Assembly: GCA_945901035.1 (NCBI GenBank)
Contig: CAMDKN010000012.1
Span: 1 to 14,268, forward strand
Source: Gulosibacter massiliensis
GTDB taxonomy: Bacteria > Actinomycetota > Actinomycetes > Actinomycetales > Microbacteriaceae
Direction: 5' to 3'
Length of the DNA stretch: 14,268 nt
A program made the position numbers and the translations under genes. Shown piece after piece: positions 2,999 through 5,956 of the stretch (positions within the stretch are counted from its first letter, which is position 1; each line of letters starts with the position of its first letter). The notes below the pieces were generated by a model, which saw only the letters and a program-made list of their open reading frames with translations, was not told where the DNA came from and ran no database searches.

Positions 2999-3001
2999 GC
3001 C

Positions 3002-3298
3002 TTAGCGGCGCTTCTGAATCTTTTCGGCCTCGGCGCGGATTTGGTCCTCCGTGAGAGGACGGTCCCCGAGCGTGGAATAAGCATCGAGGTAAGCGAACAC
3101 GACACCGATGCCCATTCCGAACATCACCCACATCGGCCAGAAGTAGCCGTTCGGTGTTGTAAACCACCAGACGCCCGAGAGAAAGGCGTTGAGGACAATG
3201 GTGACGGTCAAGAACTGCCACGCATCGCGTTTTTTCTTGAGGCTCTTCTTCGCGATTTCGAGAAGGGCGGGATCGAGGTTTTCCTTTGGAGTAGCCAT
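3002..3298 (-). CDS. Small 2TM-domain membrane protein
   Basis: A 98-residue protein with a charged N-terminus (KKSLKKKRD, residues 17-25), two membrane helices (about 27-47 and 53-72) separated by a short turn rich in W/F/Y, and a charged helical tail ending EAEKIQKRR. This matches the 2TM domain family, found alone or next to signalling domains; its biochemical role is not known. The sequence suggests both termini are cytoplasmic, since positive charges flank the helix pair. ATG at 3298 is preceded by TAGACT with 6 nt between, and there is no Shine-Dalgarno. It is the first gene of a pair with the DUF1905 gene. The divergent SRPBCC gene begins close by, so the two promoters must overlap. 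Confidence 0.82.
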   Translation of the reverse strand: MATPKENLDPALLEIAKKSLKKKRDAWQFLTVTIVLNAFLSGVWWFTTPNGYFWPMWVMFGMGIGVVFAYLDAYSTLGDRPLTEDQIRAEAEKIQKRR

Positions 3299-3304
3299 GC
3301 GAAC

Positions 3305-3310
3305 AGTCTA
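3305..3310 (-). promoter_or_regulatory. Putative -10 element for the 2TM/DUF1905 pair
   Basis: Minus-strand TAGACT, six bases, then the ATG at 3298. The same few bases read on the plus strand as AGTCTAAAT, which could serve the divergent SRPBCC gene. Inferred from spacing and the lack of any Shine-Dalgarno. Confidence 0.42.
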
Positions 3311-3353
3311 AATCCGAATGGGGCAATCTACGATGGAAACGAAAGTAGGCGAC

Positions 3354-3794
3354 ATGACCCGCATCGATGTTCGGCTTGACCTCCCCCACCCCATCGACCA
3401 CGTGTGGGACCGGCTGACCGACTGGGGATCGCACTCGGCGTGGATTCCCAACACCGTCGTCACCGTGACGACGGCGACGGCGGGGATCGGAACCGAATTC
3501 GTTGGAATCACGCGCATCGGACCATTGCGCCTCGACGACCCGATGACGGTCAGCGAGTTTGAGCCTCCGGTCAACGGAAGTGCATCCTGTGTGGTCACCA
3601 AGACCGGTCAGGTGCTGGGGGGACCCGCGGGCTTCACCCTCACCGGGCTCGGCGACTCCAGCACACGCCTCGACTGGTTCGAGGACGTGCACCTCAGGCC
3701 CGCCGGGCTGTTCTGGTGGACGGCGCCTTTTGTTCTCGTAGTCGGAACAATCGCCTTCCGGTCAGTTCTTAAGTCCTTCGCCCGCACTCTTTAG
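3354..3794 (+). CDS. SRPBCC (START/Bet v 1-like) family protein
   Basis: A 146-residue protein of the SRPBCC superfamily, a helix-grip fold with a deep hydrophobic ligand pocket (polyketide cyclase/dehydrase-like in bacteria). The start reads TRIDVRLDLPHPIDHVWDRLTDW, the typical first strand and helix with a conserved W; a G-T-E-F-V-G strand, a DPMTVSEFEPP strand and an STRLDWFEDVHL strand follow, and the C-terminal helix is hydrophobic. The ligand is unknown. ATG at 3354 fits family length best; in-frame ATGs at 3318 and 3333 would add 12 or 7 residues and are possible for a leaderless transcript, since none of the three has a clear Shine-Dalgarno. The gene is divergent from the 2TM gene and convergent with the DUF805 remnant, with a hairpin just after its stop. 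Confidence 0.83.
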   Translation: MTRIDVRLDLPHPIDHVWDRLTDWGSHSAWIPNTVVTVTTATAGIGTEFVGITRIGPLRLDDPMTVSEFEPPVNGSASCVVTKTGQVLGGPAGFTLTGLGDSSTRLDWFEDVHLRPAGLFWWTAPFVLVVGTIAFRSVLKSFARTL

Positions 3795-3798
3795 CGAC

Positions 3799-3828
3799 GT
3801 GTGCCCCTGCCAATTGTCAGGGACACAC
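3799..3828. terminator. Hairpin between convergent transcription units
   Basis: GTGTGCCCCTG (3799-3809) and CAGGGACACAC (3818-3828) form an 11-bp inverted repeat with one mismatch around an 8-nt loop. It starts 5 nt after the SRPBCC stop and 14 nt before the DUF805-remnant stop on the other strand, the place of a bidirectional terminator. No T-run follows on either side, as is common in actinobacteria. Confidence 0.6.
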
Positions 3829-3841
3829 GGAGTGAAACGGG

Positions 3842-3991
3842 TTATTTGACGGATTCGCCGAATGCGTTGGCGCCCGGCTGGCTGTCTTTGAGGAATTGGA
3901 CGAGCAACATGATCCATCCCACGATCGGAATCAGAATGAAGAGGTAGTAGGTTCCCTTGCGTCCCACATCGTGCAGGCGTCGCCAAATGAC
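3842..3991 (-). pseudogene. Truncated DUF805 membrane protein (C-terminal half only)
   Basis: On the minus strand a 49-codon open stretch reads VIWRRLHDVGRKGTYYLFI and continues through a membrane helix to QPGANAFGESVK and a TAA stop. RRLHD-x-GR, the following hydrophobic helix with P-x-V-G, and the closing G-x-N-x-F-G are the C-terminal hallmarks of DUF805 inner-membrane proteins, which normally have about 110-150 residues and several TM helices. The N-terminal helices are missing, and no ATG, GTG or TTG lies in frame upstream before the tmRNA 3' end. A GTG at 3967 could in principle start a 42-residue fragment. It lies about 55 nt downstream of mature tmRNA on the same strand, so it looks like a remnant left by a recombination event next to ssrA. 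It could still be transcribed by read-through from the tmRNA promoter. Confidence 0.7.
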
Positions 3992-4023
3992 ATGTGAACT
4001 CGTTTCGTTGTGTGTGGTGAATC

Positions 4024-4042
4024 GTGTGGAATGTGACCAGCC
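4024..4042 (-). repeat. 3' arm of the pre-tmRNA processing stem
   Basis: Plus-strand GTGTGGAATGTGACC (4024-4038) is the exact reverse complement of 4433-4447 on the other side of tmRNA. After one mismatch (4039/4432) three more pairs follow (4040-4042 with 4429-4431). In the minus-strand transcript this arm begins 3 nt after the CCA end of tmRNA. Confidence 0.85.
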
Positions 4043-4045
4043 AAA

Positions 4046-4420
4046 TGGTGGAGATGGGGGGAATTGAACCCCCGTCCAATACGAACAGTCGGAGTCTTCT
4101 ACGGGCGTATCTTCAGAAGACGTTCTGCTCGGCCCCGACCTTTAGCTGAAGAACCTAAGTCGACGGGCCCAGTATCAGTAAATGTCCTTCGAACCCCTGA
4201 CACACAGATTCGAAGCAAGCCTTCTAAATGACGCCAGGATCCAAGCCGAAGGCGGAACTTGGTCTGACGGACTTCGATGGCGGCTTATTAGGCGGCGAGA
4301 GCGAAGTCGGTGCGCTTAGCTTTGGCACCTATTGGTTTGCAAGGGGCGTTTACGAGATAACCCTGCATCCTCGACCCGCTTCTCTCCGGCTTAGACGCAC
4401 TGTCGAAACCGATCATCCCC
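4046..4420 (-). ncRNA. ssrA: tmRNA (transfer-messenger RNA)
   Basis: A 375-nt tmRNA that, with SmpB, rescues ribosomes stalled on broken mRNAs and tags the nascent chain for proteolysis. The 5' end reads GGGGAUGAUCGGUUUCGACA and the 3' end CAUCUCCACCA. The acceptor stem GGGGAUG/CAUCUCC is 7 bp with a G3-U wobble, the alanine identity element. The T arm is GGGGG-UUCAAUU-CCCCC. The CCA is encoded (4046-4048). The tag reading frame, from resume codon GCC at 4326 to tandem stops UAAUAA at 4290, encodes AKAKRTDFALAA; the ALAA end is the ClpXP/ClpAP-type degron. It lies downstream of smpB, as in many actinobacteria. The ends were set from the acceptor stem and should be exact. Confidence 0.97.
4288..4326 (-). 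other. tmRNA tag-peptide reading frame
   Basis: GCC AAA GCT AAG CGC ACC GAC TTC GCT CTC GCC GCC TAA on the minus strand gives AKAKRTDFALAA, added after the tmRNA-borne alanine. A second TAA follows immediately. The ALAA tail is the conserved proteolysis signal; the KAKRTDF core resembles tags of other high-GC Gram-positive bacteria. Confidence 0.9.
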
Positions 4421-4428
4421 AAGATGGG

Positions 4429-4447
4429 GGCGGGTCACATTCCACAC
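4429..4447 (-). repeat. 5' arm of the pre-tmRNA processing stem
   Basis: Plus-strand GGTCACATTCCACAC (4433-4447) pairs perfectly with 4024-4038; with one mismatch and three more pairs the helix spans 19 positions. In the transcript it ends 8 nt before the mature 5' G at 4420. The arm overlaps the end of the leader element AACTCAACAGTGTG. Confidence 0.85.
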
Positions 4448-4476
4448 TGTTGAGTTTTCAAAACCCTTTCGGGTCT
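4447..4476 (-). promoter_or_regulatory. rRNA-leader-like (boxA-like) element in the tmRNA leader
   Basis: The transcript reads a small hairpin AGACCC-GAAA-GGGUUU (4461-4476, GNRA loop) running into TTTTGAAAACTCAACAG and GTGTG. This closely resembles the conserved TTGAGAACTCAACAGTG-like leader/spacer element seen before rRNAs in actinobacteria, where it is linked to antitermination and RNase III processing. The resemblance is from memory, not from a search. It could instead act as a weak terminator for smpB. Confidence 0.5.
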
Positions 4477-4482
4477 GTCTCC

Positions 4483-4488
4483 ACTATA
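4483..4488 (-). promoter_or_regulatory. Putative -10 element of the ssrA promoter
   Basis: Minus-strand TATAGT, the best match to TATAAT in the gap between smpB and ssrA, lies about 63 nt upstream of mature tmRNA. Transcription starting about 7 nt downstream would include the hairpin, the boxA-like element and the processing arm in the leader. No clear -35 is visible at 16-18 nt. Confidence 0.45.
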
Positions 4489-4508
4489 GAACTCAGCTCG
4501 GACAACCT

Positions 4509-4985
4509 TTATTCCCCGCGCAAGCGCTTGGACTTCATCGCGCGTTCGGCTTCGCGTTTGTCTTCCTTTTCGCGCAGAGTTTGACGTTTGTCGTAGTCCT
4601 TTTTCCCCTTGGCGATCGCCAGTTCGACCTTGGCGCGACCGTCCTTGAAATAGATCTTGAGCGGAACGAGCGTGTAGCCGCCGTCTTTCACTCGGTGGGA
4701 AATCTTGATGATCTCGGCGCGGTGCAACAGCAGTTTGCGCTTGCGCCGGGTCGCGTGGTTGGTCCACGTGCCCTGCGTGTATTCGGGAATGTGGACGGAT
4801 TCCATCCACATTTCGCCGTCGACAATCTGCGCCCAGCCGTCGACGAGCGACGCTTTGCCCAACCGGAGTGCCTTGACTTCGGTACCAGTGAGCGCGAGAC
4901 CACACTCGTATGTGTCCTCGATGTGATAATCGTGACGGGCTTTCCGGTTCGTCGAAACGACCTTTTCGCCTTCTTCGCGTGGCAT
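4509..4985 (-). CDS. smpB: SsrA-binding protein SmpB
   Basis: A 158-residue OB-fold protein that binds the tRNA-like domain of tmRNA and places it in the A site of stalled ribosomes, its C-terminal tail acting in the empty mRNA channel. Family marks are [10 protein letters not shown] (residues 13-22), the [14 protein letters not shown] segment (34-47), [13 protein letters not shown] (65-77), RRKRKLLLH (80-88) and the basic tail [19 protein letters not shown] (127-145). Length and motifs are those of a complete SmpB. The ATG at 4985 has a purine-rich ribosome-binding region (GAGGGGG) ending 7 nt upstream, a rare clear Shine-Dalgarno in this window. It follows ftsX by 56 nt and precedes ssrA, its RNA partner, in the same direction. 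Confidence 0.97.
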
Positions 4986-5027
4986 GTCGCACCCCCTCTC
5001 CCTTTTCCCGGCGGACCCCAGCCCTCC

Positions 5028-5033
5028 AGTTTA
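5028..5033 (-). promoter_or_regulatory. Possible -10 element for smpB
   Basis: Minus-strand TAAACT in the 56-nt ftsX-smpB gap, about 42 nt upstream of the smpB ATG. It is the same hexamer as before the desaturase gene. With a purine-rich leader and a Shine-Dalgarno this would be a leadered transcript. No good -35; smpB may equally be read from the ftsEX operon. Confidence 0.3.
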
Positions 5034-5041
5034 CAACGGGG

Positions 5042-5956
5042 TCAGACGCGAAGGTAACGGGAAATCGCGATGTAGGCGCTTGTCGCCGCAAGCACGGCGC
5101 CCGCGGCCAGCAGGCCCGGGAACACGAACCAGACATCAGCGAGTTGGATAAACGAGGTTGCGGGCAGTGCGCTGGACAAATACCCGTCGACGAAGAAAAC
5201 CATAATCCCCGCGATCGCTCCACAGGCGAGCACGGACCCGATGGTCGCCGCGACGACCCCCTCGAGGATGAATGGGGTTTGGATGTACCAGTTCGAGGCG
5301 CCGACGAGTCGCATGATGGCCAGTTCGCGGCGGCGCGAGAAAGCCGACAATCGAATGGTCGTGGCGATGAGCAGGGCGGCGGCGATGAGCATCAACACCG
5401 CCACGCCGATCGCCGTCAGACTCGCGGCGTTGAGCATCGAGAAAATCCCGTCCAGATACGAACGCTGGTCGATGACGGACTCGACTCCGCTCATCCCCCC
5501 GACGGCTTCGAAGACGAGAGCCGATTGGGTCGGGTCTTTGAGGTTCACCCAGAACGTTTGGGGCAGAAGGTCGGGGGTGACGAGGTCAACGACGGGACTG
5601 CCCGCGAATTGTTCGGTGAAGTTCGCATACGCTTCGTCGTGGTTTTCGAAGTACCACTTGTCAATGTAGGGCGCGAGCGTGGCCGAGGAGAGTTGGGCCT
5701 CCACGGCCGCGATTTGTTCGGCGCCAACCTCTTGTTGGTCACACGCGCCCAGAGTCGAATATTGCGTGCAGAGATAGACCGCGACCTGGGCTTTGTCGTA
5801 CCAGTACGACTTCATGTTGGCGATTTGGGCCTGCAACAGTGCCGCCGAACCGACAAAGGTCAGCGACACGAGTGTGACGAGGATGACCGACACGACCATC
5901 GAGACGTTTCGCCGCACACCGTTCCACGCCTCGAGCAGGACAAAGTTCAATTTCAC
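5042..5956 (-). CDS. ftsX: Cell-division protein FtsX (permease-like)
   Basis: A 304-residue membrane protein that pairs with FtsE; the complex does not transport but transmits ATP hydrolysis across the membrane to activate peptidoglycan hydrolases at the septum. Layout: short cytoplasmic N-terminus with the amphipathic LLEAWNGVRRN segment (7-17), TM1 (20-41), an extracellular domain (about 45-170), then TM2 (178-200), the cytoplasmic loop FSRRRELAIMRLVGASNWYI (206-225), TM3 (228-256) and TM4 (277-299). The extracellular domain has two cysteines (63 and 72) that could form a disulfide. Length fits the family. The GTG start overlaps the ftsE stop by 4 nt (GTGA), so translation is coupled. Confidence 0.96.
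   Translation of the reverse strand: MKLNFVLLEAWNGVRRNVSMVVSVILVTLVSLTFVGSAALLQAQIANMKSYWYDKAQVAVYLCTQYSTLGACDQQEVGAEQIAAVEAQLSSATLAPYIDKWYFENHDEAYANFTEQFAGSPVVDLVTPDLLPQTFWVNLKDPTQSALVFEAVGGMSGVESVIDQRSYLDGIFSMLNAASLTAIGVAVLMLIAAALLIATTIRLSAFSRRRELAIMRLVGASNWYIQTPFILEGVVAATIGSVLACGAIAGIMVFFVDGYLSSALPATSFIQLADVWFVFPGLLAAGAVLAATSAYIAISRYLRV

Follow-up and report, generated by a model that had tools for sequence, protein, structure and literature searches.

A conserved leader–trailer helix and a boxA-like element at the tmRNA gene of Gulosibacter massiliensis and other Microbacteriaceae

The ssrA locus and its inverted repeat

In the window analysed here, by which we mean the whole 14,268-nt stretch of Gulosibacter massiliensis DNA, the tmRNA gene (ssrA) lies between the two halves of a long inverted repeat, an arrangement that raises the question of whether those halves pair in the precursor as the leader and the trailer of a ribosomal-RNA transcript do and, if so, what purpose such a helix might serve. 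Antitermination at boxA and leader–trailer helices are best known from the rRNA operons. The gene was recognized as that of a tmRNA by its tRNA-like ends, its tag reading frame, and a score for RF00023 above the gathering score; upstream on the same strand lie smpB, ftsX, ftsE, and prfB, so named after their Pfam domains (Table 1). The assembly containing the window (G000) comprises 1.2 Mb and is incomplete (79.94% complete); and from the names of the nearest SmpB relatives—mostly Microbacteriaceae, Gulosibacter, and Micrococcales assemblies, with Cryobacterium, Plantibacter, and Rhodoluna next—we infer that the family designated f1 in our sampling is the Microbacteriaceae.

Table 1. Features of the ssrA locus in the window, listed in the direction of transcription.
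Feature	Position	Strand	Basis or remark
smpB, upstream of ssrA	4509..4985	-	same strand as ssrA; Pfam SmpB PF01668, 1.2e-60
Putative -10 hexamer TATAGT	4483..4488	-	27 nt 5' of boxA; pattern match alone
Short hairpin GACCC-GAAA-GGGTT	4462..4475	-	directly 5' of boxA, in a boxB-like position; leader fold
boxA-like element TTGAAAACTCAACA	4448..4461	-	adjoins the 5' arm directly; core as in family 16S leaders
5' arm of leader–trailer helix, GTGTGGAATGTGACC	4433..4447	-	direct reading; inverted-repeat search
5' arm extension	4429..4432	-	mismatch at 4432 and three pairs at 4429-4431
ssrA, tmRNA, 375 nt	4046..4420	-	tag AKAKRTDFALAA, CCA encoded; ARAGORN and Rfam RF00023, 176.9 bits
3' arm extension	4039..4042	-	mismatch at 4039 and three pairs at 4040-4042
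3' arm of leader–trailer helix, GGTCACATTCCACAC	4024..4038	-	direct reading; covariation with the 5' arm

The preliminary description of the window had reported that positions 4024–4038 of the plus strand (GTGTGGAATGTGACC) are the exact reverse complement of 4433–4447, and direct reading bore this out, along with the extension of the helix to 19 positions by three further pairs (4040–4042 with 4429–4431) beyond a mismatch at 4039/4432, which is U-C in the transcript, and with its closure 3 nt past the CCA on one side and 8 nt short of the mature 5' end on the other, the ends of the tmRNA being those given by ARAGORN and RF00023. On the 5' side the transcript accordingly reads hairpin, TTGAAAACTCAACA, GTGTGGAATGTGACC, a mismatched C followed by GCC, and 8 nt; and on the 3' side the tmRNA, UUU, GGC, a mismatched U, and GGTCACATTCCACAC, so that the CCA is separated by 7 nt from the 15-nt 3' arm and by 3 nt from its inner extension. 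The helix thus contains 18 pairs over 19 positions, more than the approximately 17 bp that is the figure for E. coli; the minimum-energy fold of the precursor includes the duplex (z -5.14), and the arms, when joined by a linker, give a folding energy of -30.7 kcal/mol versus a shuffle mean of -11.5. The helix score was 29.0, as against a mean of 13.0 and a maximum of 19.1 in 40 shuffles of the flanks. The ssrA repeat is the longest of the 6 inverted repeats listed for the 14-kb window; since, however, another perfect 15-mer inverted pair is present there, with its members 11 kb apart, the length of the repeat alone gives modest support and the window alone is not decisive. The weight in favour of the helix comes from its position and from the relatives, rather than from its length.

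As to the leader, a transcript starting inside the 5' arm would have told against the helix; the -10-like hexamer stands far enough 5' of boxA that the whole arm would be expected in the transcript, to judge from that pattern; a sigma-70 scan of positions 3000–5500 gave no site near ssrA, so that the -10 is a guess from the pattern. A boxB-like hairpin 5' of boxA, as in the window, was found in 48% of 86 leaders of relatives versus 19% of shuffles, which amounts to a mild enrichment, and the leader of the window as a whole folded no more stably than its shuffles (z -0.14). Two further observations concern the immediate surroundings of the tmRNA. The 8-nt spacer CCCATCTT (4421–4428, minus strand) is similar to the acceptor strand at the 3' end (CCCATCTCC), and its pairing with the mature GGGGATG (4414–4420) would give a possible competing hairpin. 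The gene 3' of ssrA (3842–3994, minus strand) is apparently truncated, with one frame beginning MSFGDAC and stopping early and a second frame reading HVIWRRLHDVGRKGTYYLF.. to the end; at the corresponding place in a congener (L002) a DUF805 frame is full-length (PF05656, 3e-28).

The helix among the relatives

To place the repeat in its family we searched 99 relatives with RF00023 and read the flanks of the matches, obtaining 119 rows, 57 from the family and 62 from outside. Not among these rows are four relatives without a match above the cut-off and five others, of which three (L337, L338, L339) were analysed later, one (L341) had no tmRNA by ARAGORN, and one (G071), at a contig edge, was left out. 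The helices were scored without gaps on longer flanks, a procedure that replaced an earlier one in which leaders of 60 nt and trailers of 50 nt were folded as duplexes and which missed helices where the 5' spacer was long.

A helix of 12–24 positions between leader and trailer was present at 50 of the 57 Microbacteriaceae tmRNA genes, in 49 of them with a score higher than any obtained from 40 shuffles of the flanks concerned, L071 falling narrowly short. Counting mismatches and G-U pairs, 44 of the 50 span 17–24 positions, and 36 contain G-U pairs, which indicates an RNA rather than a DNA site. The placement of the helix is more regular on one side than on the other: measured from where the boxA core ends, all 50 helices start at offsets of -9 to +1 nt (the limit allowed having been -12 to +3), and the 3' arm follows the CCA by 2–3 nt in 35, whereas the mature 5' end lies anywhere from 6 to 60 nt beyond the helix. 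The position is therefore tied more tightly to the boxA-like element than to the mature 5' end.

Seven of the 57 family members (G019, G024, G027, G029, G034, G041, G044) gave no helix, the candidates lying far off or being too weak, and six of these seven genomes measure at most 1.8 Mb. A match to RNase III was obtained from 59 of the 60 family genomes, among them G000, and 58 of these matches lay above the cut-off; the exception, G026, has the helix and is 82% complete. The presence of the RNase III gene was tried as a separator of genomes with and without the helix and failed, since all seven helix-less genomes have a match, from which it also follows that tmRNA as such can do without the helix.

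Outside the family the helix is rare. Six of the 62 tmRNAs had one above their own shuffles, three of them at boxA (L103, L095, L098; both f18 genomes and one f5 genome), and weaker helices at boxA, below their shuffles, occurred in another f5 genome and in two f12 genomes. The phylum sample covered the best 29 new loci out of 113 genomes above the cut-off, 2 of the 29 coming from the same class. A wider class sample, with 114 matching genomes, from which 26 new loci and 40 stretches were used, made up together with L337–L339 a set with 66 non-family and 3 family rows; none of those 66 had a helix above its shuffles at boxA, and of the 3 family rows, which are not among the 57, two exceeded 30 shuffles and L280 stayed just below. 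Above-shuffle helices away from boxA (L064, L092, L130, L135, L284, L290, L324) were taken as chance. Among 80 SmpB loci, the stretch contained no tmRNA in 45 and was of insufficient length in 2; 16 of the 33 remaining had a helix above the shuffles, several of these 16 coming from genomes already counted. In that set Mobilicoccus had a helix above its shuffles and Agilicoccus one below, and Plantibacter flavus (L205) likewise carries the helix.

At three loci the trailer carries an insert: 93–98 nt separate the tmRNA 3' end from the 3' arm in L009 (genome G006), L011 (G005), and L200 (Cryobacterium psychrotolerans). In the first two the tmRNA 3' end (ATCTCCAC..) is repeated within the insert, which resembles an integration footprint, and the helix is kept outside the insert; in L200 the downstream frame has a weak match to Phage_int_SAM_1 (8.9e-4, under the curated cut-off).

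Compensatory changes, which the preliminary description had proposed seeking in the ssrA flanks of relatives, were found together with the complementarity itself, so that the locus displays both the complementary flanks enclosing the mature RNA and the compensatory changes by which an rRNA-type leader–trailer helix is recognized. The alignment comprised 22 genera and was made by MAFFT without being fitted to the structure; its rows came from 36 that satisfied the limits on score, 3' spacing, and boxA, after removal of 8 congeners and of 6 with other arm lengths, and two of the rows retained (G000 and G047) were partly misaligned by MAFFT. In the arm helix 96.0% of the cells were paired and 12 of the 16 pairs had changed on both sides, with CG, UA, and UG all occurring at one arm position. 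For the whole structure, consisting of the arm and six boxA pairs, the paired cells came to 89.7%, as against 24–46% with slid partners, and the covariation score was 0.402, a value reached by none of 500 shuffles, versus 0.213 in the shuffles, whereas the number of further pair types was matched by 57 of the 500. The boxA part paired in 73.5% of the cells, and only one of its six pairs had changed on both sides. Swapping the arms between genomes told the same way: own arms scored 28.3 and swapped arms 15.4, the own arm being strictly best in 29 of 57 because close relatives have arms in common; and in a fitted count over 44 rows, made independently of the above selection of rows, at least 14 of the 16 pairs formed in 35, with a mean of 14.25 for own versus 11.7 for swapped arms.

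The boxA-like element and the parallel with pre-16S rRNA

Directly 5' of the arm lies an element that the preliminary description had overlooked: its reading of the helix as conserved stood, and its account of the context proved incomplete. The element of the window, TTGAAAACTCAACA, is common to the 16S leaders of the family, and TTGARAACTCAACAG recurs in the ssrA and the rrn leaders of family members. The closest counterpart to the ssrA element is the GATCYTTGAGAACTCAACAGYGTGCAC present in most of the 16S loci that we read, the TTTGAGAACTACACAGTGGACGCGAGC of the 23S leaders being a less close match. We take this element of the 16S leaders and of ssrA to be the actinobacterial boxA.

Across 14 genomes a 15-mer boxA pattern, with at most one mismatch allowed, returned 59 hits, versus 7 for the reversed pattern used as a control. 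The hits, of which 30 were placed by reading the sequence and 29 by coordinates, fell at 16S or 23S leaders (39), at ssrA (10, in 9 genomes), at contig ends (6, of which 4 resemble 16S leaders and 2 are presumed to), on a contig with rRNA-leader hits (1), and elsewhere (3); the 27 exact hits were distributed among 16S (15), ssrA (6), and contig ends (6). At one mismatch 5 of the 14 genomes had no ssrA match to the pattern. In G000, whose assembly holds no 16S match and for which the congeners G010 and G014 stand in, the ssrA element was the only match with at most one mismatch.

With at most 2 mismatches the boxA core was found at ssrA in 48 of the 57 family rows—a count in part circular, since the consensus was written from these same leaders—and in 21 of the 33 rows from the rest of the order, 2 of the 27 from other classes, and 23 of the 66 non-family rows of the wider sample, as against 0.25% of shuffles. 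With more than 2 mismatches it was scored as absent in f22 (4 of 4), f72 (4 of 4), f76 (5 of 5), and 25 of the 27 rows from other classes. Outside the family boxA often adjoins the mature 5' end directly, lying within 2 nt of it in 21 of the 29 order rows having at most 3 mismatches, and within 1 nt in 21 of the 23 wider-sample rows having at most 2. The helix consequently looks like an addition between boxA and the tmRNA. Four loci of the class sample (L289, L309, L325, L335), read by eye, have the ACAACTGCACA core directly on a mature GGGG end, with a TANNNT -10-like motif so close that the predicted leader would be little more than that core. A second tmRNA-like gene in G092 (L340, C3:130901-131262; 118 bits by Infernal, none by ARAGORN) lies on a separate contig and has a boxA-like element of its own.

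The resemblance to rRNA extends to the base of the helix. Of 11 family 16S loci we used 8, leaving out one that was incomplete (L036) and two second copies (L044, L045); according to a helix score taken without a shuffle control, 7 of these have the boxA tail ACTCAAYAGYGTGC(A) paired with GCACRCTRTTGGGT 157–185 nt past the 16S gene, and in the eighth (L041) a longer variant pairs at the same place, the non-family loci L038 and L042 pairing differently. It would thus seem that the pre-16S of the family uses the same tail of boxA to form a helix of its own. The tmRNA helices often start within those same letters (-9 to +1), that of the window just after boxA. Because both the order of the elements and the basal pairs are alike, the ssrA layout may be called literally rRNA-like; and the earlier claim that the helix encloses the whole tmRNA as such helices enclose rRNAs emerges strengthened, given the boxA core of the 16S leaders and the similar basal pairing of the pre-16S.

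A proposed scheme, its alternatives, and its significance

We therefore consider it probable that ssrA, in the genome of the window and in most of the family members sampled, is organized as a miniature rrn unit in which boxA would tether the 5' arm and RNase III would probably open the duplex; the sequence evidence suggests a tmRNA made and trimmed by the production line of the ribosomal RNAs. The broader proposition—that actinomycete tmRNA is transcribed by a Nus-modified antitermination complex of the rRNA type, with the leader boxA anchoring the 5' arm until the 3' end is made and the helix can form—seems to us evenly poised between true and false. The scheme would carry over to tmRNA the model put forward for pre-16S. 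From the promoter the polymerase would transcribe the short hairpin, the boxA-like element, at once the 5' arm, then the tmRNA and the 3' arm; boxA in the nascent RNA would bind NusB-S10, which would modify RNA polymerase and keep the 5' arm close to the RNA exit, with the untranslated tmRNA of 375 nt forming a loop in the meantime. Once the CCA had been made, the emerging 3' arm would zip onto the 5' arm, and the closed helix would draw the ends together for the acceptor stem and cover the 3' end. RNase III would then probably cut the duplex in the cell, RNase P would generate the 5' end, and 3' exonucleases would trim to the CCA. The anatomy fits such a tether, in that the 5' arm keeps a set position relative to boxA, the CCA is closely followed by the 3' arm, and the 5' spacer is free. 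A NusB match was found in 5 of the 6 genomes searched, including G000. The single genome G029 (0.9 Mb) combines no NusB match and no ssrA helix with a boxA having 3 mismatches.

What is known of E. coli provides the model. There, according to PMC10250234, the formation of 30S depends critically on a pre-16S leader–trailer helix of >17 bp, whether or not RNase III is present, NusB-bound boxA is pictured as keeping the leader arm at the RNA exit to meet the emerging trailer, boxA makes a difference of 2- to 3-fold, and covariation between leader and trailer is reported for the pre-16S of the Enterobacteriaceae.

Four other readings of the repeat were weighed. According to the first, the helix is a structural clamp uncut by RNase III, which joins the ends, shields the CCA from 3' exonucleases, and is removed by the 5' cut of RNase P. 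The tight 3' and free 5' spacings would suit a clamp, as would the occurrence of RNase III in the seven genomes without a helix; nevertheless, 44 of the 50 helices have 17–24 positions, which is near the size of the helices that RNase III uses. The literature likewise speaks on both sides, since in E. coli the 16S helix matters even without RNase III (PMC10250234, in part), whereas in the rRNA-bracketing stems of Propionibacterium acnes staggered cuts were mapped that are ascribed to that enzyme (PMC3848588, in part). We regard a clamp as rather unlikely, and it may hold alongside the Nus part of the miniature-rrn explanation. According to the second, the helix is a maturation stem and nothing more, by which RNase III frees the pre-tmRNA from a longer transcript, possibly one running into the downstream DUF805 gene, with boxA being an inheritance that has no Nus role. 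Such a stem would agree with the conservation and covariation of the helix, with the presence of the RNase III gene, with the DUF805 frame found close behind the 3' arm in relatives, and with the maturation of the B. subtilis scRNA by RNase III (PMC3328962, in part); but boxA is kept at ssrA in families without the helix, is seldom found outside rrn and ssrA across the 14 genomes scanned, and is what the place of the helix is fixed against, rather than the mature 5' end, so that we hold this reading to be doubtful and clearly improbable.

A feature at the DNA level, such as the trace of elements integrating at the 3' end of tmRNA or a palindrome bound by a protein, was considered and rejected as very improbable: tmRNA 3' ends do serve as integration sites, and the inserts in G005, G006, and C. 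psychrotolerans, with the copy of the 3' end in the first two, recall one, yet these inserts leave the helix in place outside them, and the G-U pairs in 36 of the 50 helices, the free 5' spacing, and the position at boxA all speak against a DNA site. Chance complementarity in one genome, for which the second 15-mer pair of the window might have pleaded, is refuted by the helix in 50 of 57 relatives, by the covariation, and by the scores of own versus swapped arms, and retains practically no probability.

Compared with the leaders of bacterial pre-16S and pre-23S, the miniature rrn unit that we favour has the same boxA, the 5' arm downstream of it, the complementary trailer, the looped-out mature RNA, and, within the family, similar basal pairs; it differs in that the helix encloses a 375-nt tmRNA, the arm adjoins boxA with no separate boxC identified, and the ends are presumably finished by RNase P and by trimming to the CCA. 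Other targets of boxA outside rrn (suhB and others) are protein genes in gamma-proteobacteria. We know of no boxA at the B. subtilis scRNA. That RNA of the SRP is, like tmRNA, a stable non-rRNA, and its precursor is matured by RNase III (PMC3328962, in the part available; cuts at both ends according to a title cited there); it is nonetheless another RNA in another phylum, and its cleavage was shown in B. subtilis, while the ssrA helix is known from sequence alone. For E. coli pre-tmRNA the available part of a review gives RNase P at the 5' end and, as possible endonucleases at the 3' end, RNase III or RNase E, with exonucleases acting afterwards, and that part describes neither a bracketing leader–trailer helix nor boxA (PMC3968760). 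The action of RNase III on a small stable RNA is, in view of these two cases, not in itself new, and the wholly distinct route of maturation that had been suggested for the window was an overstatement. In Streptomyces venezuelae, of another family, the available part of PMC12096830 records a rise of ssrA RNA in an RNase III mutant and does not have ssrA identified in the induction experiment, results that would neither support nor exclude a role of RNase III in the Microbacteriaceae. We found no report of a boxA or a bracketing helix at tmRNA in the open-licence literature of PubMed Central; what appears to be new is the use on tmRNA of an arrangement known from rRNA.

Should the proposal be true, a step dependent on RNase III would be predicted in the maturation of Microbacteriaceae tmRNA, and the locus would offer a compact object, of 375 nt, for asking whether tethering by boxA promotes the closure of a long-range helix. 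It could also explain how a long untranslated RNA escapes Rho. The system of boxA and leader–trailer helix would then extend to another housekeeping RNA, and in these bacteria the rRNA and the RNA of ribosome rescue would share one production line and could be co-regulated.
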